Part shown: piece by piece, positions 23,378 through 44,955 of the stretch
Position numbering within the stretch: position 1 is the first letter of the stretch
Layout of the letters: each line of letters starts with the position of its first letter
DNA from: a bacterium HR40
Lineage (GTDB): Bacteria > Pseudomonadota > Alphaproteobacteria > Geminicoccales > Geminicoccaceae
Direction: 5' to 3'
Assembly: GCA_002898275.1 (NCBI GenBank)
Contig: BEIQ01000002.1
Coordinates: 1-64,000 of the forward strand
Length of the DNA: 64,000 nucleotides
The notes under the pieces: generated by a model
What the model saw: the letters and a program-made list of their open reading frames with translations, nothing else
Databases searched by the model: none
What the model was told of the DNA's origin: nothing
Program-made: the position numbers and the translations under genes

Positions 23378-24265
23378 ATGACGGCCTGGGCGTGTCCGGC
23401 CGGTCTCGATGAGGCCTTGCGGCTTCTCGCGGGAGGAGCCCAGCGGGTGGTCGCGGGAGCCACCGATCTCTACCCCCTCGATGCCGTTCGACGCGCCTCG
23501 TGGGATGTCCGCGTCGGACGGGAGCTCCCGCTCCTCGATGTGTCGCGCCTTCCCGAACTCCGCGAGATCCGGCTGAGCCCGAGCGGGCTCCGCCTCGGAG
23601 CGGCGGTGACCTTTTCCGAGATCGCCGAAGCCGGCCTGCCGGATTGGTGCCGGGCCCTGGTGCAGGCAGCGCGCGAGGTGGGCGGGCGGCAGATCCAGAA
23701 CCGCGCCACCATCGGCGGCAACCTCTGCAACGCCTCGCCCGCAGCCGATAGTGCGCCTCCCTTGCTGGCCTTCGAGGCCGAGGTCGAACTCGCGAGCGTG
23801 GCGGGTCGGCGGCGCCTGGCCCTGTCGCGGTTCCTCCTCGGCAATCGCAAGACGGCGCTCCTGCCAGGCGAGCTCCTGGTCGCCATCGACATCCCCCATC
23901 CTGGCCCGGGCACTCGTTCGTTGTTCTCGAAGCTCGGAGCGCGACGGCATCTCGTCATCTCCATCGTCTCGCTCGCCGTTGTTCTCCGCCTCGAGGCCTC
24001 CGGGCGCATCGACCGCGTGCGCCTCGCCGTCGGCGCCTGCGCACCCACGGCCGTGCGGCTGAAAAGCTTGGAGGAGGAGCTCTCCGGCCTCGATGTCGGG
24101 ACGGCCGAGGCGCGGATCGCGCCTGCGCGGCTGGTGGAGCTCGCCCCTATCGACGATGTGCGGGCGAGCGCCACCTATCGCCTCGAGGCCACGGCGGAAC
24201 TCCTGCGGCGGGCGTTGCGGGAGCTTGCCGCAGTGGCTCGCTGCGCCGGAGGATCCGACCGGTGA
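23378..24265 (+). CDS. Molybdenum hydroxylase FAD subunit (CoxM/XdhB/NdhF type)
   Basis: A 295-residue medium subunit that passes electrons from the 2Fe-2S clusters to FAD. The two FAD-binding signatures are present, VVAGATDLYP near residue 25 and NRATIGGNLCNASPAADS near 110, with a CO-dehydrogenase flavoprotein C-terminal domain after about residue 180. The ATG at 23378 follows GGAGGGGGTCGGGGAG. It is the first gene of the ten-gene operon; the next gene starts inside its stop codon. Confidence 0.92.
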   Translation: MTAWACPAGLDEALRLLAGGAQRVVAGATDLYPLDAVRRASWDVRVGRELPLLDVSRLPELREIRLSPSGLRLGAAVTFSEIAEAGLPDWCRALVQAAREVGGRQIQNRATIGGNLCNASPAADSAPPLLAFEAEVELASVAGRRRLALSRFLLGNRKTALLPGELLVAIDIPHPGPGTRSLFSKLGARRHLVISIVSLAVVLRLEASGRIDRVRLAVGACAPTAVRLKSLEEELSGLDVGTAEARIAPARLVELAPIDDVRASATYRLEATAELLRRALRELAAVARCAGGSDR

Positions 24266-27012
24266 GCGACGAGCCGATGGTCCTGCGGTTGCGGGTCAAT
24301 GGCGATCCCGTCACCCTGGCCGTGGATCCTTTCTTGCGCCTCAGCGAGCTGTTGCGCGAGCGATTGGGCCTGTTCGGTACCAAGGTGGGCTGCGAGGCCG
24401 GCGACTGCGGCGCTTGTACCGTGTTGCTCGATGGCGCGCAGGTCTGCGCCTGCCTCGTCCCTGCCTTCCAGCTGGGCGACCGCGAGGTCACGACCATCGA
24501 GGGCCTGACCCGGGATCCCCTCGGACGCCGCCTGCAACAGGCCTTCCTTGCCTGCGGCGCCGTGCAATGCGGGATCTGCACTCCGGGTATGATCATGGCA
24601 GCCTACGACCTGCTGCGCCGGATACCGCACCCGTCGCGCGAGCAGATCGAGACGGCGCTCGGTGGTGTGCTCTGCCGCTGCACCGGCTACCTGCGCATTC
24701 TCGATGCCGTACTCGCCGCCGCCAGTGGCCGGATCCCCGAACTCCCGCCTTCCGGCGGGGTAGGAGTCCGCATCGCCAAGCGCGACGGTCTCGGCAAGGT
24801 GACCGGGCAAGACCGCTTCGGTGCCGACGCGGCTCCCGAGGACGCGCTGTGGCTGCGGGTGGTGCGATCGCCTCATGCCCGGGCGCGCTTCGAGTTGGGC
24901 GATCTTGCAGCGTTCTGCCGCCGGCATCCGGGTATTCGGGCGGTGTTCACGGCGAAAGACGTGCCCGGCCGCAACCGCTTCGGCATCTACCCGGATGTCA
25001 AGGATCAGCCGGTGCTCGCCGAGGGCGAGGTGAGATATCGCGGCGAGGCGGTGCTGCTGCTCGTGGGCGATCGCGACGCGGTCGAGGCGGTGCGTCTTGC
25101 CGATCTGCCGCTCACCTTCATGCCCTCGGACGCGATCACCAGCCCCGCTCAGGCGCTTGCCGGCGAGCTTCCCCCGGTGCACGCGGACCGACCCGACAAT
25201 GTTCTGGTGCGCGGCACCTTCCGCACCGGTGACGCGGCGCACCTCCTGGCTTCGGCTCCGTTGCGCGCGAGCCTCGAGCTCGAGACCTCGTTCGTCGAGC
25301 ACGCCTACATCGAGCCCGAGGCTGGCTGGGCTCGACGGCTCGGCGAGCGGATCGAGATCGGCGTGACCACCCAGACCCCGTATATGGACCGCGACGAGGT
25401 CGCGGCGATCCTCGGGCTCGCACCGGAGCAGGTGCGAATCCTGCCGACCTGCTGCGGCGGCGGCTTCGGCGGCAAGCTCGATCTCTCCGTCCAGCCTTTC
25501 CTGGCACTGGCCGCCTGGCTTTCGAACGCGCCGGTGCGCATGGTCTATGACCGCATCGAGTCCATGGCCTCGACCACCAAGCGGCATCCCGCGCACATCC
25601 GCGTCGAGGCGGCGGTCGACGCCAGCGGCCGGATGTGCGCGCTGCGCTTTTCCGGTACCTTCGATACCGGTGCCTATGCGTCCTGGGGTCCGACCGTGGC
25701 CGGCCGGGTGCCGCTCCATGCGAGCGGCCCCTATCGCCTCGCCCACATCGATGCCGAGGCCCTCGCGGTCTACACCAACAACACGCCAGCCGGCGCGTTC
25801 CGCGGCTTCGGGGTGCCGCAAACCGCGCTCGCGGTGGAACAGCTGGTGGACGAACTCGCCCTGCGGCTCGGCCGCGACCCGCTCGCCTTTCGCCTCGACC
25901 ACGCTCTGCGCCGCGGCGATCCCACACCTTTTGGCCAGCGCCTGACGAGCTGCGGACTCGTCCCCTGCCTCGAGGCGCTGGCGCCCGCCTGGCGCGAGCT
26001 CCGTGCCCGCAGCGAGGCGATGAATGCCGAAGCTCGGACGCGCGGCGATGCGCGCCGGCGCGGCGTCGGGCTCGCCGCCATGTGGTACGGGTGTGGCAAC
26101 ACCGCGATGAGCAATCCCTCGGAGATCCGGGTGGGGCTGCGGCGCGACGGGCGGTTCGTGCTCTTCAACGGCGTGCAGGACATCGGCCAAGGCTCGAACA
26201 CGGTCTTGGTGCAGATCCTGGCCTCCGCCCTCGGGGTGCCCGAGGATTGGATCGAGTCGACGGCCGCGGATACCGCGCTCACTCGCGATGCCGGCAAGAC
26301 CTCGGCCTCGCGCCAGACCTACGTCTCCGGGCGAGCGACCGAGCTCGCCGGGCGCGACCTGCGCGCGAAGATCTTGCGGCTCGCCAATGCCGGGCCGGAT
26401 GCGCGGATCGTCGCCGAACCCGGTCGGCTCGTGGTCGAAGATCGCGGCCTTCGCCACGAGCTCTGGCTCGAGCGGCTGGCCGCCGACGCCGACGGCATCG
26501 TCCTCGAGGGACTCGGGCGCTTCGACCCGCCGGCTCGCGCCGTGGAGGATGGCTGCGGTGCGCCCTATGGGGCCTACGCCTTTGGCGCTCAGCTCGCCGA
26601 AGTCGAGGTGGATCTCGGCCTCGGCACGGTGCGGGTGCTGCAGGTCCATGCTGCCCACGATGTCGGTCGCGCGATCAATCCCCAGCAGGTCGAAGGTCAG
26701 ATCCACGGCGGCATCGTCCAGGGCATCGGGCTCGCGCTCATGGAGGAATACGTGCCCGGGCGCAGCGAGAACCTGCACGACTATTTGATCCCGACGGTGG
26801 GCGACGTCCCGACGATCGTCGTGCACCTCATCGAAGATCCCCAGCCCGACGGGCCCTTCGGTGCCAAGGGCGTGGGCGAACCGGCGCTCATCCCGACGGC
26901 GCCGGCGATCCTCAACGCTATCCACCACGCCACCGGAGTCCGGCCGCGCAAAGTGCCGGTGTTGCCGCACCGGCTGCGCGCGGCTCTGCTCGCACACGGA
27001 GAACCACCGTGA
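24262..27012 (+). CDS. Fused 2Fe-2S and molybdopterin subunit of a molybdenum hydroxylase
   Basis: A 916-residue fusion of the small and large subunits of the xanthine-oxidase family. Residues 1-155 hold two 2Fe-2S clusters (Cys44, 49, 52, 62/64 and Cys103, 106, 138, 140). The rest is the molybdenum cofactor domain with CCGGGFGGK, GAFRGFG and the catalytic Glu873 in GVGEPAL. Members hydroxylate N-heterocycles or aldehydes using water. The length is like the one-chain aldehyde oxidoreductase of Desulfovibrio, but here the FAD subunit is separate and encoded upstream. With a 6-hydroxynicotinate-reductase-like gene next, nicotinate dehydrogenase activity is a reasonable guess. GTG start, overlapping the previous stop. 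No XdhC-type maturation gene is in the operon. Confidence 0.9.
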   Translation: MSDEPMVLRLRVNGDPVTLAVDPFLRLSELLRERLGLFGTKVGCEAGDCGACTVLLDGAQVCACLVPAFQLGDREVTTIEGLTRDPLGRRLQQAFLACGAVQCGICTPGMIMAAYDLLRRIPHPSREQIETALGGVLCRCTGYLRILDAVLAAASGRIPELPPSGGVGVRIAKRDGLGKVTGQDRFGADAAPEDALWLRVVRSPHARARFELGDLAAFCRRHPGIRAVFTAKDVPGRNRFGIYPDVKDQPVLAEGEVRYRGEAVLLLVGDRDAVEAVRLADLPLTFMPSDAITSPAQALAGELPPVHADRPDNVLVRGTFRTGDAAHLLASAPLRASLELETSFVEHAYIEPEAGWARRLGERIEIGVTTQTPYMDRDEVAAILGLAPEQVRILPTCCGGGFGGKLDLSVQPFLALAAWLSNAPVRMVYDRIESMASTTKRHPAHIRVEAAVDASGRMCALRFSGTFDTGAYASWGPTVAGRVPLHASGPYRLAHIDAEALAVYTNNTPAGAFRGFGVPQTALAVEQLVDELALRLGRDPLAFRLDHALRRGDPTPFGQRLTSCGLVPCLEALAPAWRELRARSEAMNAEARTRGDARRRGVGLAAMWYGCGNTAMSNPSEIRVGLRRDGRFVLFNGVQDIGQGSNTVLVQILASALGVPEDWIESTAADTALTRDAGKTSASRQTYVSGRATELAGRDLRAKILRLANAGPDARIVAEPGRLVVEDRGLRHELWLERLAADADGIVLEGLGRFDPPARAVEDGCGAPYGAYAFGAQLAEVEVDLGLGTVRVLQVHAAHDVGRAINPQQVEGQIHGGIVQGIGLALMEEYVPGRSENLHDYLIPTVGDVPTIVVHLIEDPQPDGPFGAKGVGEPALIPTAPAILNAIHHATGVRPRKVPVLPHRLRAALLAHGEPP

Positions 27013-28544
27013 ATCTTTCGCGGGAGTCCTCGGCCACCGGCCGCGCCGATATGACGGAGCGTTTCGGGGCGCGGGAGGAAGGTGGCATCGTCCGCTGCGA
27101 CGCCTGCCCCGTACTGTGCCGCATCCGCCCCGGGCGCAGCGGTGCCTGCGGTCGCTACGCGAACGAGAACGGAGCCCTCGTGCGCACCGATCCGGTGGTG
27201 TTGCTCGAACGGGTGCGAGCCGAAGGTGGCGCGGTCGTGCCCTTCGCCGCTGGGGGCCGAGAGGGGGCGCTGGTGACCCACCGCGACCTCTTCGTCACCG
27301 GCATCGGCGCCGGTACCACCTACCCCGACTACAAGCCGGCCCCCTTCATCGTGGCGAGCCGCTACGACGGCATCGATACCGTGACGGTGGTCTCCGAAGG
27401 CATTTTTTCCTACTGCGGCGTCAAGGTGAAAATCGACACCGACCGTCACCTCGGCCCGGAAACGGCGACGATCCGGGTCGAGGGGGAGCCGGTCGGGCAC
27501 GTGACGACAGCCGAGTACGGCTCGCAGATGCTGTCGATTGGCGGGGTGCGCCATCTCACAGGCGGCAGCAAACGCGAGGGAACGGTCACCTGCGAGACGC
27601 TCCTGCGCCTGTGCAATGGCGAGCCGGTGGAACTCTCGATCGAGGGTGGAGCGCAGGTGGTGGTGCAAGCGGGTGCCGCGCCTATCGTCGACGGCCGGCG
27701 CGAGGAGCGCATGCGAGTCGGTTGCGGCTCGGCGACCATTGGCATCTTCGCCAAACAATGGTACGGCCATGTGGACGAGGTGATCGTGGTCGACGACCAT
27801 ATCACCGGTGTGCTCACCGAACATCAGGCCGGCCGCTGTCTCGGCATGCGACCCTCGGGTATTCGCATCGAAGGCCGGCGGTCGACTCCCGGTCGCTATT
27901 TCCATGTCGCCCGCCCGGGCAAAGGCTGGGGCGGCACCGACATCACCGATCCGCTGTCCATCGTGCGCGAGATCGACCGCCAGCTCGCCTGGCCGGGAAT
28001 GCGGGTGTTGTTCACCAGTACCACGGGCGAGGACGCGCTCTTCTGCCTGCTCGACGAGGACTTCCGCCTGCGCGAGGCGGAGATGCCGGAGGCGGTGCGG
28101 CAGACGATCGAACGCATCGCCGAGAACTGCGAGCCGTCGCTCTGCTCGGTCTTGTTCATGGCTGGAGCTGGCGGCTCGCTGCGCGCAGGAGTGACGGAAA
28201 ATCCGGTGCGGCTCACGCGTTCGGTGCACCGCGGCGAGACCCGCATCACCATGGGCGGCGCACCGGTCTATCTGTGGCCGGGGGGTGGCATCACCATCAT
28301 GGTGGACGTCACGCAGCTGCCGCGACGCGCTTTTGGCTATGTGCCCACGCCGGCGCTGGTCGCTCCCATCGAGTTCACCCTGCCGACCTCCCTCTATGCC
28401 CAGATCGGCGGCCATGTCGCGGCGGTCGAGCCGCTTGCCGAGGTGGTCGCCCGCTATCGCGAGGCCGCACGCATCGAGCCCGCGGACCCCGCACTGCCTT
28501 GGCCCGGACAGCCACCTCGAGGCGATGGAGCCGATCTCCCGTGA
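27009..28544 (+). CDS. 6-hydroxynicotinate reductase-like iron-sulfur protein
   Basis: A 511-residue protein like those annotated 6-hydroxynicotinate reductase (Hnr), which in Eubacterium barkeri reduces 6-hydroxynicotinate to 1,4,5,6-tetrahydro-6-oxonicotinate. An N-terminal Cys cluster (Cys30, 33, 37, 47) suggests an FeS centre. Typical family segments are ATYPDYKP-like GAGTTYPDYKPAPF, SEGIFSYCGVKVKID, EYGSQMLSIGG and RSTPGRYFHVA. Many homologues are annotated by similarity only, so the substrate is not proven. The GTG at 27009 is chosen because GGAGAA lies seven bases upstream; the ATG at 27051 has no such site. It overlaps the molybdoenzyme stop and the UPF0280 start. Confidence 0.78.
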   Translation: MNLSRESSATGRADMTERFGAREEGGIVRCDACPVLCRIRPGRSGACGRYANENGALVRTDPVVLLERVRAEGGAVVPFAAGGREGALVTHRDLFVTGIGAGTTYPDYKPAPFIVASRYDGIDTVTVVSEGIFSYCGVKVKIDTDRHLGPETATIRVEGEPVGHVTTAEYGSQMLSIGGVRHLTGGSKREGTVTCETLLRLCNGEPVELSIEGGAQVVVQAGAAPIVDGRREERMRVGCGSATIGIFAKQWYGHVDEVIVVDDHITGVLTEHQAGRCLGMRPSGIRIEGRRSTPGRYFHVARPGKGWGGTDITDPLSIVREIDRQLAWPGMRVLFTSTTGEDALFCLLDEDFRLREAEMPEAVRQTIERIAENCEPSLCSVLFMAGAGGSLRAGVTENPVRLTRSVHRGETRITMGGAPVYLWPGGGITIMVDVTQLPRRAFGYVPTPALVAPIEFTLPTSLYAQIGGHVAAVEPLAEVVARYREAARIEPADPALPWPGQPPRGDGADLP

Positions 28545-29461
28545 CCGCCGTCGTTTGGCGCGAGCGGGCCGTCGCCGCTCGCCTCGGTCCCAACCGGTTG
28601 CATCTCCAGCACGGGCCCATCGATCTTTTGGTCGACGTCGAGGGTCCAGCGCCTTCGGTCGAGGCGGCGTTGACGGCCGCCCGCCGGCGTTTCGACGGGC
28701 TCCTCGAGGGGCTGTGCGCCGTGCTGCCGGTGCTGCGTCGCCCGATTCCCCCGGGCTTCGACGCGGCCGGGCTGCCCGAAACGGCACAGCGGATGATCGA
28801 AGCGGTGCGGCCCTATCATCCGATCTTCGTCACTCCGATGGCGGCGGTGGCGGGCGCGGTCGCCGACACCATCCTCGCGGCGATGCGCCGGGTCCCTGGC
28901 CTCGGCCGAGCGATCGTCAACAATCGTGGCGACATCGCCCTGTCCTGCCCGCACGGTCGCACCATCCGCACGGGCGTGGTCACCGACCTCGCGCGTCCCG
29001 TACCGACTCTCGTGATCGAGACCGGGCCCGAGATCGGCGGTATCGCCACGAGCGGCCGGGAGGGCCGGAGCTTTTCCCTCGGCATCGCCGACGCGGTCAC
29101 CGTCCTCGCCGACGACGGGGCGACCGCGGACGCCGCCGCCACCCTCGTCGCCAATGCCGTGGACCTCGACCATCCCGCGGTGGAACGGCGTCCGGCCGCG
29201 AGCCTCGATCCCGACAGCGACCTCGGCGGACTTCCGGTGGTGACCCGGCTCGGGCCGCTCGGCCGGGCGGAGGTAGCGGCCGCTCTCGATGCCGGCGCTG
29301 CCTTTGCCCGCTCGCTCGTCGCGATCGGCCGCATCCGCGGGGCCGTGCTGGCCCTGCGCGGCCAACTGCGGATCGTCGGCGAGGTCGGAAGACTTGCGCA
29401 TGGCGCGCCAGCGCGCCATCGACACCATCGCCCCCAGCCAGGAGAGGAGAGCCCGGGATGA
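28541..29461 (+). CDS. UPF0280 family protein (ApbE-like fold)
   Basis: A 306-residue UPF0280 protein. Segments such as PFIV-like HPIFVTPMAAVAGAVAD, AIVNNRGDIAL and GGIATSGREGRSFSLG resemble the core of ApbE, the FMN transferase that attaches flavin to Ser or Thr; the family is counted as ApbE-like. Its gene sits directly after the Hnr-like gene with a 4-base overlap, a pairing I recall from other alphaproteobacteria. A role in flavin or other cofactor insertion into the Hnr-like enzyme is my inference. The final ~20 residues (RHRHHRPQPG) are basic and probably not part of the fold. Confidence 0.82.
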   Translation: MTAVVWRERAVAARLGPNRLHLQHGPIDLLVDVEGPAPSVEAALTAARRRFDGLLEGLCAVLPVLRRPIPPGFDAAGLPETAQRMIEAVRPYHPIFVTPMAAVAGAVADTILAAMRRVPGLGRAIVNNRGDIALSCPHGRTIRTGVVTDLARPVPTLVIETGPEIGGIATSGREGRSFSLGIADAVTVLADDGATADAAATLVANAVDLDHPAVERRPAASLDPDSDLGGLPVVTRLGPLGRAEVAAALDAGAAFARSLVAIGRIRGAVLALRGQLRIVGEVGRLAHGAPARHRHHRPQPGEESPG

Positions 29462-30660
29462 CCACGAGACGGGATGTTCTGGCCCTCGCGAGCGCGCTGA
29501 TCCTGCTGCCGCCTGCGGTCGCCGCGGCGGCGGAGACCATCCGCATCGGCGAGCTCATGAGTTACAACCGCTTTGCCGCCTTCGCCGAGCCCTACCGCAA
29601 CGGCTGGCAGCTCGGCATCGGCGAAATCAACGCTGCCGGCGGCGTCGCCGGAAAGATGCTGGAAGTCGTGAGCCGCGACGACGGCGGCACCACCGGCGAC
29701 GCGGTGCGCGTCGCCGAGGAGTTGGTCTCCGGCGAAAAGGTGAGCTTCCTGTTCGGCACCTTCCTTTCCAACGTCGGCCTCGCGGTCGCCGACTTTGCCA
29801 ACCAGAAGCGCATCCTCTTCATCGCCGCGGAGCCGCTGACCGACGCCCTGAGCCTGGACAAGGGCAACCGCTACACCTTCCGCATGCGCCCCAGCACCTG
29901 GATGCAGACGGCCATGCTGGTGGACGAAGTGCGGGATCTCGGCGTCAAGCGCTGGGCGGTGGTGGCGCCCAACTACGAATACGGCCAAGCCGCCGCTGCC
30001 GCCTTCCGCCAGCTGCTGACACAGCGCATGCCGGGAGCGGAGATCGTGGCCGAACAGTTCCCGGCGCTAGGCAAGATCGACGCCGGTGCCACCATCGCTG
30101 CCCTCGAGCAGGCCAACCCGGATGGCATCTTCAACGCCCTCTTCGCCGGCGATCTCGCCAAATTCGTCCGCGAGGGCTCGATTCGCGGCACCTTCGAGGG
30201 CCGCACGGTGGTGAGCCTGCTCACCGGCGAGCCCGAATATCTCGACCCGCTCGGCGCCGAAGCGCCGGTCGGCTGGATCGTCACCGGCTATCCCTGGGAC
30301 AAGATCGACGATCCGAAGCACCGCGCTTTCGTCGAGGCCTATCAACAGAAATACAAGGATCATCCGCGGCTCGGCTCGCTCCTCGGCTATATCATCGCCC
30401 GCACCATTGGCGCGATGCTGCAAGAGACCGAGGGCTCGACCGACACCGAGACGATGATCGCCGCCCTCGAGCGCATCACCGTCGACACGCCGGTCGGACC
30501 GATCCGCTTCCGTGCGCTCGACAACCAGTCGACCCTCGGCGCCTGGGTCGGCAAGCTCGCCGTCGAAAACGGCCGCGGCACCATGGTCGACGTGCGCTAT
30601 CGCGACGGCGCCGATTACCTGCTTCCGGAAGCCGAAGTGCGCAAGGTGCGCACCGACTGA
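29458..30660 (+). CDS. Branched-chain-amino-acid-type ABC substrate-binding protein
   Basis: A 400-residue type I periplasmic binding protein. The signal sequence MTTRRDVLALASALILLPPAVAAAA-like carries a TRRDVLA pair and could be Tat-dependent. The mature part has the usual order IRIGELMSYNRFAAF, EINAAGGVAGK, VSFLFGTFLSNVG and AVVAPNYEYGQAAAAAF. Such proteins feed the LivHMGF-type importer encoded just downstream. Sitting in a heterocycle-oxidation operon, the ligand may be an aromatic or N-heterocyclic acid rather than an amino acid; this is inferred. A hairpin with a T-run follows the gene. Confidence 0.9.
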   Translation: MTTRRDVLALASALILLPPAVAAAAETIRIGELMSYNRFAAFAEPYRNGWQLGIGEINAAGGVAGKMLEVVSRDDGGTTGDAVRVAEELVSGEKVSFLFGTFLSNVGLAVADFANQKRILFIAAEPLTDALSLDKGNRYTFRMRPSTWMQTAMLVDEVRDLGVKRWAVVAPNYEYGQAAAAAFRQLLTQRMPGAEIVAEQFPALGKIDAGATIAALEQANPDGIFNALFAGDLAKFVREGSIRGTFEGRTVVSLLTGEPEYLDPLGAEAPVGWIVTGYPWDKIDDPKHRAFVEAYQQKYKDHPRLGSLLGYIIARTIGAMLQETEGSTDTETMIAALERITVDTPVGPIRFRALDNQSTLGAWVGKLAVENGRGTMVDVRYRDGADYLLPEAEVRKVRTD

Positions 30661-30677
30661 ATGGAACGTGTGGGAAA

Positions 30678-30711
30678 GGCGGCGGGGGCGACGGTCCCGC
30701 CGCCGCTTTTT
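30678..30711 (+). terminator. Intrinsic-terminator-like hairpin inside the operon
   Basis: A 9-bp perfect stem, GGCGGCGGG (30678-30686) with CCCGCCGCC (30696-30704), loop of nine bases, followed by GCTTTTT (30705-30711). It lies between the binding-protein gene and the permease gene, where a partial terminator would raise binding-protein expression over the membrane parts. Some read-through must occur if the downstream genes share the promoter. Confidence 0.7.
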
Positions 30712-30737
30712 CCGACACCGGCAAGGCGGCAAGGCGG

Positions 30738-32591
30738 ATGGATCTCGGTTTCGTCGCTGTCCAGTTCCTCAATGGACTCGCGAGCGCTTCCTCGCTGTTT
30801 TTGACAGCCGCGGGACTCACCATCATCTTTGGCGTGACCCGCATCGTCAATTTCGCCCATGGCTCGCTCTACATGCTGGGAGCCTATTGCGCCCTGAGCC
30901 TGCTTGCCGCCATGGGTCCATGGGCGTCGACGCCCACCGGCTTCTGGCTCGCGGTCCTGGCTGCCGCCGCGGCGGTCGGAACGATCGGGATCGTCGTCGA
31001 AGTCGGTCTGCTGCGGCCCATTTATCGCGCGCCGGAGTTGTTCCCGCTGCTCCTCACTTTCGGCCTGGTGCTCATCGTCCAAGACCTTGTCAAATACCTA
31101 TGGGGGCCGGAAGATGTGTTGGGACCGCGAGCACCGGGACTGGCGAGCTTCGTGCGCATCTTCGGCTATCGCTTCCCGCAGTACGATCTGCTGTTGATCG
31201 CGATCGGGCCGCTCGCGCTCCTCGCCATCTGGCTCCTTTTCCATCGCACGCGCTTCGGCATTCTCGTGCGCGCCGCCACCGAGGACCGCGAGATGGTCGA
31301 AGCGCTCGGCGTCAATCAGCGGCTGCTGTTCACGAGCGTCTTTTTCCTGGGAGCAACTCTTGCCGGGCTCGCCGGAGCGCTGCAGATCCCGCGCCAGGCA
31401 GCCACTCCCTTCATGGACCTCGACATCATCGTCGAAGCCTTCGTCGTCACCGTGATCGGGGGTATGGGCAGCGTCGCCGGAGCGTTCCTCGCTGCCCTCT
31501 TGATCGGCGAGTTGCACGCCTTCGGCATCCTCCTCTTCCCCCGCATCACCCTCGTCTTGGTCTTCCTCGTGATGGCAGTGGTACTGGTGCTGCGCCCATC
31601 GGGCCTGCTCGGTCGGCCAGAAGCGCCTTCGGCTGCCTCCCGTCACGACAGTTTCCCGCCGCTCCGGCCTTTTGGCTGGCGGGCGCTCGCCACCGTGGCA
31701 GTTGTCCTCGTCCTGCTCCTGCTCTTGCCGATCTTCGTCTCGGAATACGGGCTCAAGGTGGCGATCGACACGCTCGTCTTCGCGCTCTTTGCGACCAGTC
31801 TCGGCTTCCTCATGGGTCCGGGCGGGCTCATCTCCTTCGGCCACGCTGCCTGGTTCGGGCTCGGCGCCTATGCCGCGGCCCTGCTCGTCGATCACCTCGG
31901 GGCGCGGATGGAGGTCACGTTCCTCGCCGCTCCGCTCGCCGCGGGGCTCGGCGCCTCGTTGTTCGGTTGGGTGATCGTGCGCCTGTCGGGTGTGTACCTC
32001 GCGATGCTCACTCTCGCGGTGGCGCAGATCCTCTACGCCATCGCCTTCCAGTGGGTCGAGCTCACAGGCGGTGACAACGGGCTCATCGGCATCTGGCCGC
32101 CGGAGTGGGCGCGCGGCCGCACGGTCTACTATTACCTGGTGCTCGCCGTCACCCTTTCCGGCCTCGCCTTGCTGGGGCGTGCGACCTTCGCACCCTTCGG
32201 CTATGCGCTGCGCGGCATCCGCGATTCGCAGCCGCGCGCGGAAGCCATCGGCATCGACGCCCCGTTCCATCGCTGGCTGGCCTTCGCCTTCTCGGGAGCG
32301 CTCGCCGGGCTCGCCGGCTGTGTCTACACCTTCTCGAACGGCAGCATCGATCCCAGCCTGCTCGCCATTCCGACCTCGGTGGATGCCCTGGTGATGACCC
32401 TCCTCGGCGGCATTCATGCGGTGAGCGGTCCGGCGATCGGCGCCCTCGCTTTCACCCTGCTCGAGGATCTGGTGATGCCGCTTACCGACTATTGGCGGGC
32501 GCTGCTCGGCGCGATCATCGTGCTGCTCGTGCTCGGCTTCCGCGACGGCCTGGCTGGAAGCCTGGAGCGCCGCTTCGCGACGAAGGGCTGA
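30738..32591 (+). CDS. LivH-LivM fused ABC permease
   Basis: A 617-residue fusion of the two permeases of a branched-chain-amino-acid-type importer. Residues 1-300 are LivH-like (LTAAGLTIIFGVTRIVNFAHGSLYMLGAY at the start, VIGGMGSVAGAFLAALLIGE later). From about residue 325 LivM-like sequence follows (FLMGPGGLISFGHAAWFGLGAYAAA, then LLGGIHAVSGPAIGALAF). Each half has about eight membrane segments. Fused LivHM proteins exist but the usual form is two genes. The ATG at 30738 has AAGGCGG just upstream. Confidence 0.92.
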   Translation: MDLGFVAVQFLNGLASASSLFLTAAGLTIIFGVTRIVNFAHGSLYMLGAYCALSLLAAMGPWASTPTGFWLAVLAAAAAVGTIGIVVEVGLLRPIYRAPELFPLLLTFGLVLIVQDLVKYLWGPEDVLGPRAPGLASFVRIFGYRFPQYDLLLIAIGPLALLAIWLLFHRTRFGILVRAATEDREMVEALGVNQRLLFTSVFFLGATLAGLAGALQIPRQAATPFMDLDIIVEAFVVTVIGGMGSVAGAFLAALLIGELHAFGILLFPRITLVLVFLVMAVVLVLRPSGLLGRPEAPSAASRHDSFPPLRPFGWRALATVAVVLVLLLLLPIFVSEYGLKVAIDTLVFALFATSLGFLMGPGGLISFGHAAWFGLGAYAAALLVDHLGARMEVTFLAAPLAAGLGASLFGWVIVRLSGVYLAMLTLAVAQILYAIAFQWVELTGGDNGLIGIWPPEWARGRTVYYYLVLAVTLSGLALLGRATFAPFGYALRGIRDSQPRAEAIGIDAPFHRWLAFAFSGALAGLAGCVYTFSNGSIDPSLLAIPTSVDALVMTLLGGIHAVSGPAIGALAFTLLEDLVMPLTDYWRALLGAIIVLLVLGFRDGLAGSLERRFATKG

Positions 32592-32594
32592 CCC

Positions 32595-33359
32595 GTGTCA
32601 CCGCTGCTCGTGGCGGAAGGTCTCGTCAAACGCTTCGGTCCGGTGCTCGCCGTCGATGGGGTGAGCTTCAGCCTGGCGCCGGGCGAGCGGCTCGCCATCA
32701 TCGGCCCGAACGGGGCTGGCAAATCCACCTGCTTCAACCTGATCGGCGGCCAGCTGCGCCCCGACCGGGGACGAGTGATCCTCGACGGCCGGGACGTCAC
32801 CGGTTGGCCCGCCTCGCGCATCTGGCGCCTCGGCGTCGGGCGCACCTTCCAGATCGCCCGCACCTTCCACTCCATGACCGTGGCAGAGAACGTCCAAATG
32901 GCGCTTTTGAGCCTGCACCGCCGGACCCGCGCCCTGTTGCCGCGGGCGAACCGGCTGTGGCGGGAGGACGCGCTCGCGGTGCTGGCGCAGGTCGGCCTGC
33001 TCGACGCCGCGGACCGACCGTGCGGCGAGCTCGCCTATGGCGATGTCAAACGCGCCGAACTGGCGATCGCCCTCGCCACTTCGCCGCGCCTGCTGCTCAT
33101 GGACGAACCGACGGCCGGCATGGCACCGGCCGAGCGGCATGCGCTCATGGAGTTGGTCTCGGAGCTCGCCACCGGTCGCGGCATCGCGATCTTGTTCACC
33201 GAGCACGATATGGACGTGGTCTTCCGGCACGCCGACCGCATCCTGGTGATGGCCCAAGGGCGGACCCTCGCCATGGGCACCCCGAGCGAGGTGCGCGAGG
33301 ATCCGGAGGTGCGCGCCATCTATCTCGGCGGCGGCATGCGGCGGGAGATGGTGCTTTGA
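32595..33359 (+). CDS. LivG-type ABC ATPase
   Basis: A 254-residue ATPase of the branched-chain-amino-acid class. Walker A is GPNGAGKST, Walker B LLLMDEPTAGM and the H-loop FTEHDMDVVF. The signature region reads LAYGDVKRAELAIAL, where family members usually have LSYGxQRxLEIARAL, so the signature is close to normal for this class. The GTG start is three bases after the permease stop. It pairs with the LivF-type ATPase that begins in its stop codon. Confidence 0.93.
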   Translation: MSPLLVAEGLVKRFGPVLAVDGVSFSLAPGERLAIIGPNGAGKSTCFNLIGGQLRPDRGRVILDGRDVTGWPASRIWRLGVGRTFQIARTFHSMTVAENVQMALLSLHRRTRALLPRANRLWREDALAVLAQVGLLDAADRPCGELAYGDVKRAELAIALATSPRLLLMDEPTAGMAPAERHALMELVSELATGRGIAILFTEHDMDVVFRHADRILVMAQGRTLAMGTPSEVREDPEVRAIYLGGGMRREMVL

Positions 33360-34075
33360 CGGCCGGCCTCGAGCTGGAGCGGGTGGCAGCGGCCTATGGT
33401 GCCGCGCAAGTGCTCTTCGATATGTCCTTCGCGGTGGCAGCGGGCGAAGTCGCGGTGCTGCTCGGCCGCAACGGTGCCGGCAAGTCGACCACGCTGAAAT
33501 GCATCATGGGTCTCGTCCGCCCCCTCTCCGGCACGATCCGCTTCGAAGGACGGGACATCACCGGCCTCGAACCCTGGCGCATCGCCCGCCTCGGCATCGG
33601 CTACGTGCCGGAAGAGCGGCGGATCTTCTCGACCCTGACGGTGGAGGAGAATCTCGAAGTGGGCAGACGCCGAGCAGGCGGGCCCCGGCTTTGGAGCTAC
33701 GACCGTCTATTCCGCCTCTTCCCCAATCTCGCGGTCCTCCGCCGCCAGCGCGCCGGCCATCTCTCGGGTGGCGAGCAGCAGATGTTGGCGATCGCCCGCA
33801 CGCTCGTCACCGATCCGCGGCTTCTTCTGCTCGACGAGCCGTCCGAGGGCCTCGCTCCCGTCATCGTCGAGCAGCTGGCGGCGGCCCTGATCGAGATCAA
33901 AGCACAGGGTGTGAGCGTGCTGCTGTCGGAGCAAAACCTGCACTTCGCTGCCGCCGTGAGCGACCGCGCCTTCGTCGTCGAACGCGGCCATGTTCGCTAT
34001 GCCGGGGAGATGAGGCGGCTTTTGCAGGAGCGCGCGGTCCTCGAGCGCTATCTCGCCATCGAAGGAGTGCCATGA
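33356..34075 (+). CDS. LivF-type ABC ATPase
   Basis: A 239-residue second ATPase of the importer, with Walker A GRNGAGKST, signature LSGGEQQMLAIARTL, Walker B LLLLDEPSEGLAP and the LSEQN H-loop form in LLSEQNLHFA that is typical of LivF. The TTG at 33356 overlaps the LivG stop as TTGA; no better start is available upstream of the conserved GLELERVAAAYG. The hyuA ATG overlaps its stop, which keeps transport and hydrolysis genes translationally linked. Confidence 0.92.
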   Translation: MTAGLELERVAAAYGAAQVLFDMSFAVAAGEVAVLLGRNGAGKSTTLKCIMGLVRPLSGTIRFEGRDITGLEPWRIARLGIGYVPEERRIFSTLTVEENLEVGRRRAGGPRLWSYDRLFRLFPNLAVLRRQRAGHLSGGEQQMLAIARTLVTDPRLLLLDEPSEGLAPVIVEQLAAALIEIKAQGVSVLLSEQNLHFAAAVSDRAFVVERGHVRYAGEMRRLLQERAVLERYLAIEGVP

Positions 34076-36156
34076 ACGAGCAAGCGGGACGGGCGGGCGG
34101 GCTTCGGGTCGGCATCGACGTCGGCGGCACGTTCACCGACCTCATGCTCGTCGACGAAGCCGGTCGGGTGCGCGTCGCCAAGACCCCGACCACGCCGGAC
34201 AACCAGGCCGAGGGCGTGCTCGCCGCTCTCGAGGCCGCCGGCGTCGATCTCTCCGCCGTCTCCCTCCTCGTGCACGGCACCACCACCACGACCAACGCCT
34301 TTCTCGAACGCCGCATCGCTCGGGTCGGGCTCATAACGACCAAGGGGTTCCGCGACGTGCTCGAGCTCGGCCGACGTACCCGTCCGCGACCCTACGGCAT
34401 GACCGGGACCTTCGAGCCGCTCGTCGAACGGCCCTTCCGGCTCGAAGTGGACGAGCGGATCACCGCCGAGGGCGAGGTGTTGCGACCGCTCGATCCCGAG
34501 GAGGTGCGAGGGCGTGCCCGCGCGCTCTTGGACATGGGGTGCGAGGCCGTGGTGATCCATTTCCTCCACGCCTATGCCAATCCTGCGCACGAGCTGCTGG
34601 CGGAGCGGGTGGTGCGCGAGCTGTGGCCCAACGACTATGTCACCGTCGGCCACCGCATCCTCTCCGAATATCGCGAATACGAGCGGGGCTGCACGGCCAG
34701 CGTCAATGCCGCGGTGCAGCCGGTGCTCGACCGCTACCTGCGCCGCCTCGAGGCTCGGTTGCGGGAACGCGGTTACCGCCACGAACTCCTCGTGGTCCAG
34801 GGCAACGGCGGCACCCTGCCCGCCCGGATGGTGGTCGAGGAGGCGGTCAAGACCCTGATGTCCGGCCCGGCGGCGGGAGTGATCGCCGCTGCCTGGTGCG
34901 CCCGCCAGGCGGGCTTCGCCCATGTCATCACCTACGACATGGGCGGCACTTCGACGGACGTGGCGCTGATCGAGAACGGGGTCCCGGCGGTGAGCTCCGA
35001 GCTCGAGCTCGCCTATGCCATGCCGGTGCACGTGCCGATGGTGGACGTCGTCACCCTGGGTGCGGGAGGAGGCTCCATTGCCCACGTCGACGCCGGCGGC
35101 GTGCTCAGGGTCGGACCGCGGAGCGCGGGAGCGGTGCCCGGTCCCATCGCCTACGGCCGGGGTGGCGACGAGCCGACGATCACCGACGCCCAGCTCGTCC
35201 TCGGACGGCTGCCGCCCGACCGACTGACCGGGGTCGAACGGCCGGTGCCGCCCGCGGAAGTGGCGCGCCGGCTCGAGGAGCGCATCGGTCGCCCGCTCGG
35301 GCTCGACGGTGTCGGCGCGGCAGCGGCCATCCTGCGGGTCGCCGACGACCGCATGGCGGGGGCGATCCGCACCACCTCTCTCGCCCGCGGCTACGACCCC
35401 CGCGACTTCGTGTTGTTCGCCTTCGGCGGCGCAGGACCGCTGCACGCCTCTGCCCTGGCCAAGGAACTCGGCATTCCGCTGGTGCTGGTACCCCCGCGGC
35501 CGGGGGTCACCAACGCCCTGGGTTGCCTCGTCGCCGATGCGCGCCACGACTTCGTGCGCACCCTCAATCGGCCCTTGGCAACCCTCGACGTCCAGGATCT
35601 CGCCGCCGTCGCCCGCGCCCAGCTCGGCGAGGGCGAGGCTGCGCTCGGGCGCGAAACCACCCCCATTCTCGGCCGCGAGGTGCGGATCTCGGCGGAGATG
35701 AAGTTCGAGGGTCAAACCCATTTGATCCGGGTCGAACTGCCCGCCGAGGAGGTCCTTTCCGGCCGACTCACCCGAACGCGTCTGCTCGATGTGTTCGCCG
35801 AGGCCTACGACCGACGCTTCGCCGTGCGCCTTCCCGGGATTCCCGTATGGCTGGTCAATCTCCAGACGACCGTGATCGGCCGTCGTCCGGGGCTCGATCC
35901 GCATGCCCTTTTGCCCGAACGCGCGGCCAGCGACGCCGAAGCCGCCTGCATCGGGGTGCGACCCGTATGGTTTTCCGGTCGGTTCTTGCCGACCCCGATC
36001 CTGGCGCGCGAGCGTCTCGCGCCGGGAGCGCGTTTCCAAGGTCCAGCGATCGTCGAGCAGCTCGATGCGACGACGGTCGTGGAGCCGGGCGACGAAGGGC
36101 AGGTCGACGCCTTCGGCAATCTCGTCCTGCGCGTCCGCTCCGACTGGGAGGGCTGA
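34072..36156 (+). CDS. Hydantoinase/oxoprolinase family subunit A
   Basis: A 694-residue HyuA-type subunit. The family uses ATP to phosphorylate and open cyclic amides (5-oxoproline, N-methylhydantoin) or, in acetone carboxylase relatives, other substrates. The actin-like ATP-site motifs are present: GIDVGGTFTDLMLVDE at residue 13 and YDMGGTSTDVALIENG near 285, then LGAGGGSIAHVD and FGGAGPLHA. Its partner HyuB follows by four bases. In this operon a lactam made by the Hnr-like enzyme would be a sensible substrate; that is inference. Confidence 0.92.
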   Translation: MNEQAGRAGGLRVGIDVGGTFTDLMLVDEAGRVRVAKTPTTPDNQAEGVLAALEAAGVDLSAVSLLVHGTTTTTNAFLERRIARVGLITTKGFRDVLELGRRTRPRPYGMTGTFEPLVERPFRLEVDERITAEGEVLRPLDPEEVRGRARALLDMGCEAVVIHFLHAYANPAHELLAERVVRELWPNDYVTVGHRILSEYREYERGCTASVNAAVQPVLDRYLRRLEARLRERGYRHELLVVQGNGGTLPARMVVEEAVKTLMSGPAAGVIAAAWCARQAGFAHVITYDMGGTSTDVALIENGVPAVSSELELAYAMPVHVPMVDVVTLGAGGGSIAHVDAGGVLRVGPRSAGAVPGPIAYGRGGDEPTITDAQLVLGRLPPDRLTGVERPVPPAEVARRLEERIGRPLGLDGVGAAAAILRVADDRMAGAIRTTSLARGYDPRDFVLFAFGGAGPLHASALAKELGIPLVLVPPRPGVTNALGCLVADARHDFVRTLNRPLATLDVQDLAAVARAQLGEGEAALGRETTPILGREVRISAEMKFEGQTHLIRVELPAEEVLSGRLTRTRLLDVFAEAYDRRFAVRLPGIPVWLVNLQTTVIGRRPGLDPHALLPERAASDAEAACIGVRPVWFSGRFLPTPILARERLAPGARFQGPAIVEQLDATTVVEPGDEGQVDAFGNLVLRVRSDWEG

Positions 36157-36160
36157 ATCG

Positions 36161-37822
36161 GTGAGCAGGCTCGATCCCGTGACCCTCGCCGTCATCCAGA
36201 ATGGCCTCGTGCAGGTCTGCAACGAGATGGACATCGCCTTCTCCCGCGCCGCCTTCAGTCCGGTGATCGCCGAGGCCAACGACCGCTCGGACGGCATCTA
36301 CGGCCGCGCGGACGGGTCGCTCATCGCCCAGGGCGAGCTCGGCCTGCCGATCTTCGTCGGTACCATGCAGGACTCCACCCGCGCGGTGATCGAATGGATC
36401 GAGGCCGGCCGAGTCGCCCCGCCCGAGCCCGGCGACGTCTATGCCGTCAACGACCCCTATCTCGGCGGCACGCATCTCATGGATGTGCGCTTCGTCAAAC
36501 CGTTCTGGTATCGGGGCGAGCTGTTCTGCTGGCTGGCCAACACCGGCCACTGGCCGGACATCGGCGGCAGCGTGCCGGGAGGTTTCTCGGCATCTGCCAC
36601 CGAGATCGAGCAAGAGGGGCTGCGTATCCCGCCGGTCAAGCTCTACAAGCGCGGCCAACTGGATCGCGAGCTCTGGGCCCTCGTCACCGCCAATATCCGC
36701 ATCGCCGAGCAGCGCATCGGCGACATCGAAGCCCAAGCCGCTGCCCTCGAAGTGGGAGCCCGTCGACTCGCTCGTCTGCTCGACCGCTACGGTCGCGACA
36801 CGGTGGACGCGGCGATCGCCGAGATGCGCCAGGCGGCAGCCCGACTGATGCGGGCGCGGATCCGCGAAGTCCCGGACGGAGTCTACGAGAGTGTCGCTTG
36901 GATCGACAGCGACGGCGTGGTGGACGAGCCCCTCGCGATCCGCCTCCGCCTCACGGTGGACGGCGAGCGCATGGTGTTCGACTTCCGCCACAGCTCGCCG
37001 CCCTGCGAGGGGCCGATGAACTCCGTCCTCGCGACCACCAAGAGCGCTGTCTACCTCGCGATCAAACACGTCTGGCCGGAGGTGCCGATCAACGCTGGCA
37101 TGTTCGAACCCCTCCACATCCCCGATCCCGAGGGCACCTTCCTCTACGCCCGCTATCCGCGTCCCGTTTCGGGCTGCGCCGCCGAGGTCTCGCAGCGCAT
37201 CGCCGAGGCGGTGTTTCTCGCCCTCGTCCAGGCGGTGCCGGAGCGGCTGTGGGGAGCTCCTGCTGGTACCTCCGGCAATTTCTCGCTCGGCGGCTACGAC
37301 CCGGAAAAGGGCCGCTCGTGGGTGATGTACCACATCACCGGTGGCGGTTACGGGGGCAACGCCGAGACGGATGGCCTGAGCTACGGCTGCTCGACCATCG
37401 GCATTTCCAAGAGCGCGCCGATCGAGGTCACCGAACAGCAATACCCCGTCCTGTTCGAGCACTATGCCTTGCGCGAGGGATCGGGGGGACGGGGTCGACA
37501 TCGCGGCGGCTTCGGCCTCGACTACGCCGTCCGGCTGCGCCGCGGCCGCGCACGCGCCTCCTTCGTCATGGACCACGGTCGCTTGGGTCCACCCGGCGTA
37601 CTCGGCGGCGAACCCGGGGCACCCAACGAGATCGAGATCCGCTTTGCCGACGGTCGGGTGTGGCAGCCGCCGCACCGCTCCAAGGCGCAAGGGATCGAAG
37701 TGCGGGCAGGCGACGTCATCCACATTCGCACCCCCGGCGGTGGCGGCTACGGCCGCCCGGAAGAACGCGACCCCGAACTCATCGCCCGCGACCTTCGCCG
37801 CGGCTACTACGACCGCTGGTGA
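36161..37822 (+). CDS. Hydantoinase B/oxoprolinase family subunit B
   Basis: A 553-residue HyuB-type subunit. Typical segments are LDPVTLAVIQNGLVQVCNEMD at the start, VYAVNDPYLGGTHLMDV, WLANTGHWPDIGG, CEGPMNSVLATTKSAVY and the C-terminal RTPGGGGYG. It forms a complex with HyuA. The GTG at 36161 is four bases after the hyuA stop. This is the last gene of the co-directional run that begins at 23378; no strong terminator is seen after it. Confidence 0.92.
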   Translation: MSRLDPVTLAVIQNGLVQVCNEMDIAFSRAAFSPVIAEANDRSDGIYGRADGSLIAQGELGLPIFVGTMQDSTRAVIEWIEAGRVAPPEPGDVYAVNDPYLGGTHLMDVRFVKPFWYRGELFCWLANTGHWPDIGGSVPGGFSASATEIEQEGLRIPPVKLYKRGQLDRELWALVTANIRIAEQRIGDIEAQAAALEVGARRLARLLDRYGRDTVDAAIAEMRQAAARLMRARIREVPDGVYESVAWIDSDGVVDEPLAIRLRLTVDGERMVFDFRHSSPPCEGPMNSVLATTKSAVYLAIKHVWPEVPINAGMFEPLHIPDPEGTFLYARYPRPVSGCAAEVSQRIAEAVFLALVQAVPERLWGAPAGTSGNFSLGGYDPEKGRSWVMYHITGGGYGGNAETDGLSYGCSTIGISKSAPIEVTEQQYPVLFEHYALREGSGGRGRHRGGFGLDYAVRLRRGRARASFVMDHGRLGPPGVLGGEPGAPNEIEIRFADGRVWQPPHRSKAQGIEVRAGDVIHIRTPGGGGYGRPEERDPELIARDLRRGYYDRW

Positions 37823-43354: not shown

Positions 43355-43864
43355 ATGCGCTGTCCGTTCTGCAGTTCGGAAGACACCCAGGTCAAGGATT
43401 CGCGTCCCGTCGAAGACGGCACCGCTATCCGCCGCCGCCGCCAGTGCGGGGCCTGCGGCGGACGCTTCACCACTTTCGAACGGGTGCAGTTGCGGGATCT
43501 CGTGGTGATCAAGAAGGACGGCCGTCGCGTGCCGTTCGACCGCGACAAGCTCGCGCGCTCGATCCGCATCGCCACTCGCAAGCGCGGCATCGATGAGGAG
43601 CGGATCGACCGCATCGTGGCCGGCATCGTGCGGCGGCTCGAGACCAGCGGCGAGACGGAGGTGCCGTCGACCCGTATCGGCGAGCTCGCCATGCAGAGCC
43701 TGGCCGAACTCGACGAAGTGGCCTATGTGCGCTTCGCCTCGGTCTACCGGGACTTTGCCACGGCGCGCGATTTCGAGGAATTCATCCGCCGTCTCCCGAC
43801 CGCCGAAGAATCCGCGGGCGGCCCCATGGAGCCGCAGGCGGCAGCCGGGGGACGGATAGTTTGA
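43355..43864 (+). CDS. nrdR: Transcriptional repressor NrdR
   Basis: Zn-ribbon and ATP-cone repressor of ribonucleotide reductase genes that senses ATP/dATP. The 169-residue protein has the zinc ribbon [13 protein letters not shown]...[17 protein letters not shown] (Cys3, 6, 31, 34), then the ATP cone ([20 protein letters not shown]). No typical NrdR box was seen near its own start. It leads the riboflavin gene run, with ribD starting in its stop codon; glyA, the frequent upstream neighbour, is absent. A -10-like TATACT lies at 43320, without a good -35. Confidence 0.97.
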
Positions 43865-44952
43865 GCTCCGCCACCGACGAACGCTTCATGCGCGCGGCCC
43901 TCGCGCTCGGTGCTCGGGGGCTCGGCCGCAGCTGGCCCAATCCCTCCGTCGGCTGTGTGCTGGTGCGGGACGGGCGAGTGGTCGGGCGCGGTTGGACCCA
44001 GCCCGGTGGTCGGCCGCACGCCGAGACCGAAGCCCTGCGCCGGGCTGGCGCACTCGCCCGCGGGGCCACGGCCTATGTGACCCTCGAGCCTTGCGCCAAT
44101 TGGGGTCGGACTCCGCCCTGCTGCCGCGCGCTGGCGGAAGCCGGGGTAGCGCGTGTGGTGGTCGGCTGCATCGACCCGGATCCGCGCACCAACGGCAAAG
44201 GTGTCGCCTTCCTGCGCGAGGCCGGGATCGAGGTGGTCGTCGGTTGCCTCGAGGACGAGGCGCGGCGGCAAAGCCTCGGCCTGTTCCGGCGGATCTTCGC
44301 CGGTCGACCGATGGTGACCCTCAAGCTCGCCCTGTCCCTGGACGGACGGATCGCCACCCGCACCGGGCACAGCCAGTGGATCAGCGGCGAGCGCGCCCGG
44401 CTCGAGGCCCATCTGCTGCGGGCAACACACGACGCGGTGCTGGTCGGGAGCGGCACGGTCCTCGCCGACGATCCCGCCCTGACCTGCCGGATTCCCGGGC
44501 TCGGCGACGCCCGACCGCTGCGGATCGTCCTCGACCGCCGCCTGCGCACGCCACCGAGTGCCAGACTGTTCGCCGGCGGGCCTCCCGTCCTCGTCTTCAC
44601 CCGCCGCGACCACCAGCGGGAGTCGGCCGAAAAGCTGCGTGCCCGAGGCGCGGAAGTGGTGGGGGTGGACGAGCCCTATCTTCCCAATGTGCTCGACGAT
44701 CTCGCCCGCCGGGGGCTCACCCGGCTGCTCGTCGAAGGCGGCGCCCGGGTGGCCGCCGCCTTCCTCGCCGAGCGGCTGGTGGACCGACTCTGCCTCGTCT
44801 ATGCTCCCATCCTACTGGGCGGCGATGCCCATCCCGGCATCGCCGACCTCGCGCTCGACGAGGTCGGCGAGGCGCCGCGATTTCGCGTGACGGAGCGCCG
44901 ATCGCTCGACCAGGACACGCTCGTCGAACTCGAAGCCGTCGCGGGAGAGTGA
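43861..44952 (+). CDS. ribD: Bifunctional riboflavin deaminase/reductase RibD
   Basis: Carries out the second and third steps of riboflavin synthesis from GTP. The 363-residue protein has an N-terminal zinc deaminase domain (HAETEAL, then [14 protein letters not shown] with the zinc Cys residues) and a C-terminal reductase domain ([36 protein letters not shown]). The start is a TTG overlapping the nrdR stop. ribE follows three bases after its stop. Confidence 0.96.
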
Positions 44953-44955
44953 GCC

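Follow-up and report, generated by a model that had tools for sequence, protein, structure and literature searches.

A block of ten genes in the alphaproteobacterium HR40 (Geminicoccaceae; assembly GCA_002898275.1) can be read as a gene set for the reductive degradation of nicotinate, in which the two-subunit enzyme HyuAB replaces enamidase as the ATP-dependent opener of the ring of 1,4,5,6-tetrahydro-6-oxonicotinate (THON). This reading, drawn from sequence comparison, is given a probability of about 80%. The block occupies positions 23378-37822 on the plus strand of contig BEIQ01000002.1, and the stretch analysed here, referred to as the window, consists of positions 1 to 64,000 of that contig (contig C2 of a genome of 2.89 Mb in 8 contigs, 100% complete). 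Among 109 genomes with a homologue of 6-hydroxynicotinate reductase (Hnr), 106 have one of the ring openers and lack the other, with HyuB used as a proxy for the HyuAB pair in all whole-genome counts; this strongly supports the proposal, made in a first-pass annotation of the window, that HyuAB stands in for enamidase. The same annotation saw no enamidase in the block, and this is borne out for the whole genome, where no close enamidase was found and the highest-scoring hit of an enamidase relative has an E-value of 3.9e-6 over 84 residues; the broad family PF01979 has six matching stretches there. The representative of the alternative ring opener used for comparison matches the enamidase structure 2vun in phmmer at 1e-109, its sole PDB match at 1e-10.

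Reductive nicotinate degradation and its ring-opening step

The route from nicotinate through 6-hydroxynicotinate and tetrahydro-6-oxonicotinate to ring opening has been reported in aerobes (PMC3511419, PMC9304392). In a Bradyrhizobiaceae strain and Azorhizobium, an Hnr homologue (42% identity to that of Eubacterium barkeri) is encoded in a conserved cluster (PMC3511419), and in E. barkeri the THON ring is opened by a bifunctional enamidase (PMC9304392; for the pathway see also PMC10331938). The nicotinate fermentation of E. barkeri (Ndh, Hnr, enamidase) shares with the window a Mo-hydroxylase, a 6-hydroxynicotinate reductase and, as proposed for the window, a hydrolytic opening of THON. It differs in its enamidase and its four-subunit hydroxylase, whereas the window has HyuAB and two hydroxylase genes; the two systems are likened by description, not by sequence. 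In the aerobic THON cluster of Azorhizobium caulinodans and strain SG-6C, the genes for the first three steps were identified through BLAST searches that used the cluster of E. barkeri (PMC3511419), so that an enamidase is presumably among them; in the operon of the window HyuAB is present and AA_synth lacking. The first-pass annotation had suggested a distinct aerobic variant of the pathway; an aerobic reductive route is already on record (Azorhizobium, SG-6C), and the novelty lies in the enzyme that opens the ring. In the literature searched (titles and the beginnings of abstracts of the papers listed, with preprints and most subscription journals outside the search), no link between HyuAB and nicotinate was found, and the name UPF0280, treated below, was not met; one fungal transcriptome paper mentions a nicotinate term together with 'oxoprolinase'.

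The assignment would provide a specific, testable function for one branch of the large and generically named HyuAB/oxoprolinase family, and would complete a vitamin-degradation pathway in genomes without the known ring opener. It would also mean that two unrelated enzymes, one of which is expected to spend ATP, have been swapped repeatedly at one step, and one may then ask what selection favours the costly version.

We infer the reactions and the substrate from gene content, orthology, the either/or distribution of the ring openers and catalytic motifs. Nicotinate would be taken up by the ABC importer encoded in the block and converted by the Mo-hydroxylase to 6-hydroxynicotinate, which Hnr, its maturation probably assisted by UPF0280, would reduce to THON. 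HyuA would then activate the lactam carbonyl of THON with ATP, and the C-N bond would be hydrolysed at the metal site of HyuB. This is expected to give an aminomethylene-glutarate, from which ammonia would be lost, spontaneously or with assistance, to leave 2-formylglutarate. Nicotinate is the likely substrate in view of the annotation of relatives (17 of 26 plasmid matches to the Hnr-like protein are annotated as 6-hydroxynicotinate reductase), the pathway described in PMC3511419, and the presence of NicA/NicB-type hydroxylases in both HyuAB and enamidase clusters. The Mo-hydroxylase gene adjoins the Hnr homologue in the window, as would be expected for the reductive (THON) pathway.

Distribution of the two ring openers

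Relatives of Hnr were taken from related genomes and from named genomes (for the latter, the best 80 of at least 577 confirmed candidates). In 90 hnr neighbourhoods with clustered gene calls, HyuAB was found in 30, an enamidase-type amidohydrolase in 23, both in none and neither in 37. L025 and L074 come from the same genome, which is therefore counted double, and L030 and L031 are two pieces of one other genome. Among the 23 enamidase loci, L079 contains in addition a remote HyuAB pair, with identities of 41% and 30%, that was scored as non-orthologous. Because the flanks of these neighbourhoods were at most 10 kb and some contigs were cut, whole genomes were counted in two samples, one of 387 genomes of the class that are at least 90% complete and one of 397 genomes of the phylum.

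In the class sample, 76 genomes have Hnr, and these comprise 32 with enamidase only, 43 with a HyuB orthologue only, none with both and one with neither. Among the 311 Hnr-negative genomes, defined by the absence of any match reaching E 1e-50, enamidase occurs in two and a HyuB orthologue in four. Hnr is present in 38 genomes of the phylum sample, and the 33 that are new divide into 18 with enamidase only, 13 with HyuB only, two with both and none with neither. The first-pass annotation had proposed a genome search for the co-occurrence of Hnr, UPF0280 and HyuAB without an enamidase; Hnr with HyuB and no enamidase is encountered in 56 of the 109 Hnr-positive genomes, alongside 50 with enamidase only, two with both and one with neither. 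Pathway loci that lack hyuAB, which had been named as evidence against the idea, do occur (51 of the 109 genomes have no HyuB orthologue), but an enamidase is present in all but one of the 51, that is in 50, which favours replacement. Orthologues were delimited by identity (at least 64% for HyuB and at least 60% for enamidase, limits that were chosen after gaps in the lists were visible), and matches of 41-62% to HyuB and of 38-43% to enamidase were excluded as other groups. Scoring in the class sample was limited to the top three or four first-look candidates of each genome, whereas in the phylum sample it covered all candidates. The sole Hnr genome with neither ring opener (G375) consists of 770 contigs with 6% contamination.

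Outside the class, HyuAB lies beside hnr in two metagenome-assembled genomes, one bearing the name Betaproteobacteria (L098) and the other Thiotrichales (L059). Both kinds of cluster are also carried on plasmids: in the four of the 26 plasmid matches that were inspected for gene arrangement, the order hnr-UPF0280-AA_synth-hyuA-hyuB was seen in Neorhizobium and Pleomorphomonas, and an enamidase-type arrangement in Sulfitobacter and a Comamonadaceae strain. Among 74 labelled loci (32 enamidase-type and 42 HyuAB-type), the binding protein of the importer is found in 14 and 16, respectively, and a MarR gene in 21 and 20. As similar gene groupings recur in many related genomes, the grouping in the window is not accidental.

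Repeated exchange on gene trees

The exchange of ring openers can be followed on the Hnr tree, which has 74 rows (the short rows G053 and G223 were dropped, and the unlabelled G375 was not counted). In a careful version of this tree the ring-opener label changes nine times, with at least seven of the changes forced by starred, that is well-supported, branches; in label shuffles the mean is 23.8 changes, and none of 500 shuffles was as low as nine. Such a value, below the shuffle mean, indicates that the ring-opener state is inherited yet repeatedly exchanged. Three families (f28, f68 and f89) each hold both enamidase-type and HyuAB-type genomes, which together with the nine changes points to repeated exchange around a retained reductase. 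On FastTree trees the label changes eight times for UPF0280 (73 rows) and six times for the large hydroxylase subunit (65 rows); on these two trees, as on a quick tree of the binding protein, labels are more clustered than in all 200 shuffles.

It could be argued that the division between enamidase and HyuAB merely follows the descent of the genomes in the samples and has no functional basis, given that labels are clustered on the trees and that many genomes come from few genera. This is very improbable in view of the nine changes on the Hnr tree with their well-supported branches, the three mixed families, and the near-absence of both genes from Hnr-negative genomes. Since the sampled genomes are non-independent, Fisher values for the class sample overstate the association, and the Hnr tree is the better test.

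Evidence against replacement and possible alternative functions of HyuAB

Several observations weigh against HyuAB as the replacement for enamidase in this pathway. The binding-protein tree (30 rows) has three label changes, with shuffles giving at least six, and so shows the weakest mixing, and the Hnr of the window sits on a long branch (0.96) of the Hnr tree. Two genomes of one genus (G515 and G555, genus g278) are the only ones of the 109 to carry both ring openers, on different contigs; they are possible snapshots of an exchange. A distance of at most 25 kb separates enamidase from hnr in 40 of 52 genomes, and hyuB from hnr in 31 of 58; in the other 27 of these 58, hyuB is farther away or on a different contig, and the single operon is one of several arrangements. 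In the phylum sample, all four Hnr genomes that fall outside the class are enamidase-type. AA_synth (PF06684), often as a tandem pair, is present in 29 of the 32 enamidase-type and 14 of the 42 HyuAB-type loci (L114-L188), and the two versions of the pathway therefore differ beyond the ring opener; no AA_synth was found in the genome of the window, in a search whose controls matched nowhere either, so that its absence is unproven. The four Hnr-negative genomes with close HyuB homologues (64-65%) belong to one family, and in the two that were inspected these genes adjoin another Mo-hydroxylase; the HyuB family thus reaches beyond the Hnr pathway. Finally, the presumed catalytic Tyr136 of the caprolactamase subunit CapB aligns with Phe142 of HyuB.

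The dispersal of hyuB, together with the generic nature of the name 'hydantoinase', leaves some room for HyuAB acting elsewhere, in the salvage of 5-oxoproline or hydantoin for instance, while an unrecognised enzyme opens the ring. This is considered quite improbable, as a HyuB orthologue occurs in 43 of the 76 Hnr-positive and four of the 311 Hnr-negative genomes of the class sample and never together with enamidase, the genome of the window has another oxoprolinase-like open frame, and no third family of like frequency is seen in the 90 clustered neighbourhoods (the 37 with neither ring opener were not inspected singly).

A more serious alternative, although still an unlikely one, is that HyuAB-type clusters serve another N-heterocycle and that HyuAB opens a related lactam and not THON. 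HyuAB/caprolactamase-like enzymes act on several lactams (PMC8453981), and the homologues beside another Mo-hydroxylase without Hnr, the unequal AA_synth content, and the clustering of labels on every tree, with the binding protein least mixed, all agree with it. If the two kinds had different substrates, the importer, hydroxylase and reductase should be split by label; the observed split is incomplete, with nine, eight, six and three changes on the Hnr, UPF0280, hydroxylase and binding-protein trees, and this argues against different substrates. Moreover, if each pathway had its own substrate, many genomes would be expected to contain the two together, and both enzymes are found in just 2 of 109 genomes, while NicAB-type hydroxylases are found in both kinds of cluster.

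The loci in the Hnr-negative genomes can be described further. At L189 (5692-14634; genome G351) Pfam matches place a MarR gene, a Mo-hydroxylase, HyuA, HyuB, BKACE and a ring-hydroxylating oxygenase in a row, and at L190 (6973-14634; genome G127) gene calls without Pfam give a similar order as far as the gene after HyuB. These loci perhaps encode a different route of N-heterocycle breakdown in which HyuAB opens the ring, and their gene content suggests that relatives of this HyuAB act on other lactams.

HyuAB and its closest characterized relatives

Of the two subunits of the proposed ring opener, HyuA (34072..36156, plus strand; Pfam Hydantoinase_A 6.1e-87) is the ATP-binding one and HyuB (36161..37822, plus strand; Pfam Hydantoinase_B 5.9e-165) the metal-binding hydrolase. 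The ATP motifs DVGGTFTD, DxGGTSxD and GxxPGP of HyuA are kept across 30 rows. In HyuB, residues D41, H105, D108 and H130 align with D41, H99, D102 and H124 of CapB, which form an Asp-His-Asp-His metal site, and H105, D108 and H130 are conserved across 28 rows.

HyuA resembles the structures 7hk5 and 6yra. The latter is the caprolactamase CapAB of Pseudomonas jessenii, an ATP-dependent lactamase likewise built of two subunits, whose ATP and metal motifs, as defined in PMC8453981, are shared by HyuAB of the window. The CapAB models of NCBIfam (NF050156/NF050157) are the best for both subunits of the window, yet they reach 477 and 305 bits against equivalog cut-offs of 1000 each (for HyuA the closest model, under its cut-off, is CapA), and the substrate of CapAB differs from that expected for HyuAB of the window. 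In CapB, Tyr136 is described as the only obvious acid/base group (PMC8453981); one may speculate that the enamine leaving group of THON needs less help than an alkyl amine. The N-methylhydantoinase 7hk5 is the best PDB sequence match of HyuA (1.4e-146), and differs in being a single fused chain of 1288 residues, whereas HyuA and HyuB of the window are two genes. A second Hydantoinase_B match of the same genome (G000:C4:153217-154737) lies in a 1221-residue open frame that is probably a fused oxoprolinase.

Hnr and UPF0280

The Hnr-like protein (27009..28544, plus strand) was assigned by similarity to annotated relatives, no Pfam or NCBIfam model matching it. It is approximately 60-78% identical to full-length relatives and 61-73% identical to the 26 plasmid matches, and the name Hnr derives from the annotation of these relatives and from PMC3511419. 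Four cysteines (C136, C195, C239 and C374) are present in 86 of 86 rows, and C37 and C47 in 85. The predicted structure (pLDDT 75.9) has no PDB fold match at E < 0.001, which carries little weight at such confidence. In one genome (G053:C1:2969775-2971255, L117) Hnr is found as two overlapping pieces with a break near residue 255, either a frameshift or a split gene. A ferredoxin-NADP reductase gene, a candidate electron donor for Hnr, occurs in the Hnr clusters L194 (5834-6670), L195 (9493-10299) and L197 (12881-13654); a homologue was detected in 10 of the 174 loci searched and none in the operon of the window.

The gene that follows encodes UPF0280 (28541..29461, plus strand; NCBIfam NF003322, 315 bits with a cut-off of 290), a protein with the fold of the ApbE superfamily that matches 2o34 in phmmer at 9e-9. 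Its structural model (pLDDT 92.8) gives VIA Z scores of 20.8 to 2o34 and 14-17 to ApbE, Ftp and FmnB, the next unrelated structure scoring 8.0. UPF0280 is encoded in 31 of 32 enamidase-type and 41 of 42 HyuAB-type loci, and in one unlabelled Hnr locus. Its TSG and ADxxxT segments are conserved and presumably resemble those of ApbE; the near-invariant residues in 80 rows include no conserved His. The family is one that we take to be the same as COG2122.

6-Hydroxynicotinate reductase contains Fe-S clusters and a covalent flavin, the latter reportedly found in the E. barkeri enzyme by Alhapel in 2006. Together with the ApbE fold this suggests that UPF0280 might attach the flavin to Hnr and in this way mature it, as a possible function. 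Two lines of evidence count against UPF0280 as a flavin transferase. Its fold is that of the ApbE, FmnB and Ftp flavin transferases, but their canonical target motif, D-x-x-[S/T]-G-A-[S/T] (PMC12052999), is found in 0 of 86 Hnr rows. In addition, COG2122 is needed for homocysteine synthesis, with DUF39, and does not share the flavin-binding region of ApbE (PMC5764234). Homocysteine synthesis with DUF39 is a possible alternative role for UPF0280; no DUF39 match was found in Hnr with Pfam up to E 10. Flavinylation at a GCGSAT segment of Hnr was also considered and rejected, as position 243 is Thr in just 66 of 86 rows (Ala in 19, Ile in one) and the canonical motif is missing.

A wider proposal may be formulated from these data, namely that the ATP-spending HyuAB version, with HyuB in 58 of 109 Hnr-positive genomes, is a major route of reductive nicotinate breakdown among the bacteria sampled and arose by repeated exchange with enamidase. 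In this proposal UPF0280, beside hnr in nearly all loci of both kinds, would be a maturase of the ApbE type and would link the covalent flavin to Hnr at a position unlike the ApbE motif. Taken as a whole it is tentative, with the odds against it. The data on UPF0280 also suggest a possible job, the maturation of Hnr, for a family without a known reaction.

Organization of the gene block and its surroundings

Open-reading-frame analysis and scans with Pfam and NCBIfam confirm ten genes on one strand, as the first-pass annotation had described. The junction distances in gene order are -4, -4, -4, -4, +77, +3, -4, -4 and +4, so that the overlaps of four bases which it had noted for most genes hold for six of nine junctions. 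Its view of the block as one operon is less certain: the 77-base gap between the binding-protein and permease genes contains a terminator-like stem-loop (30678..30704, plus strand; 10 pairs and a T run), which could end or attenuate transcription inside the block and makes a single transcription unit uncertain. The RNA folding z score of this element is -2.0, with an equally good fold in 7 of 200 shuffles, and terminator-like sites are not enriched across the region (6, with a shuffle mean of 5.1).

The first two genes encode the Mo-hydroxylase. The FAD subunit, of the NdhF/CoxM type (23378..24265, plus strand; Pfam FAD_binding_5 3.7e-42, CO_deh_flav_C 5.4e-17), has an ambiguous start codon at 23378 or 23447, and the second subunit (24262..27012, plus strand; Pfam Fer2, Fer2_2, Ald_Xan_dh_C, MoCoBD_1 and MoCoBD_2) is a fusion of [2Fe-2S] and molybdopterin parts. 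In place of this usual hydroxylase, a NicA/NicB-type enzyme, with weak cytochrome c matches at its end, is encoded in one HyuAB cluster (L194) and two enamidase clusters (L197 and L167). The pair in L194 is annotated by its depositors as nicotinate dehydrogenase; the NicA/NicB proteins of L194 and L197 have no specific NCBIfam model, every match being under its cut-off, and the name in these two clusters is therefore the depositors' label only.

Four genes encode the importer: a substrate-binding protein of the branched-chain-amino-acid type (29458..30660, plus strand; Pfam Peripla_BP_6 6.4e-67), a fused LivHM-type permease (30738..32591, plus strand; two stretches of Pfam BPD_transp_2), a LivG-type ABC ATPase (32595..33359, plus strand; Pfam ABC_tran 4.7e-31 and BCA_ABC_TP_C), and a LivF-type ABC ATPase (33356..34075, plus strand; Pfam ABC_tran 3.6e-34, best NCBIfam model TIGR03410, under cut-off). 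The block is flanked on its 5' side by a histidine-phosphatase-like gene and secB and on its 3' side by a GGDEF/EAL gene, with no MarR-type regulator among the scanned flanking genes. Approximately 5.5 kb 3' of the block, genes for NrdR, RibD and RibBA (43355-46676, plus strand) form a riboflavin synthesis cluster that is probably an ordinary one.

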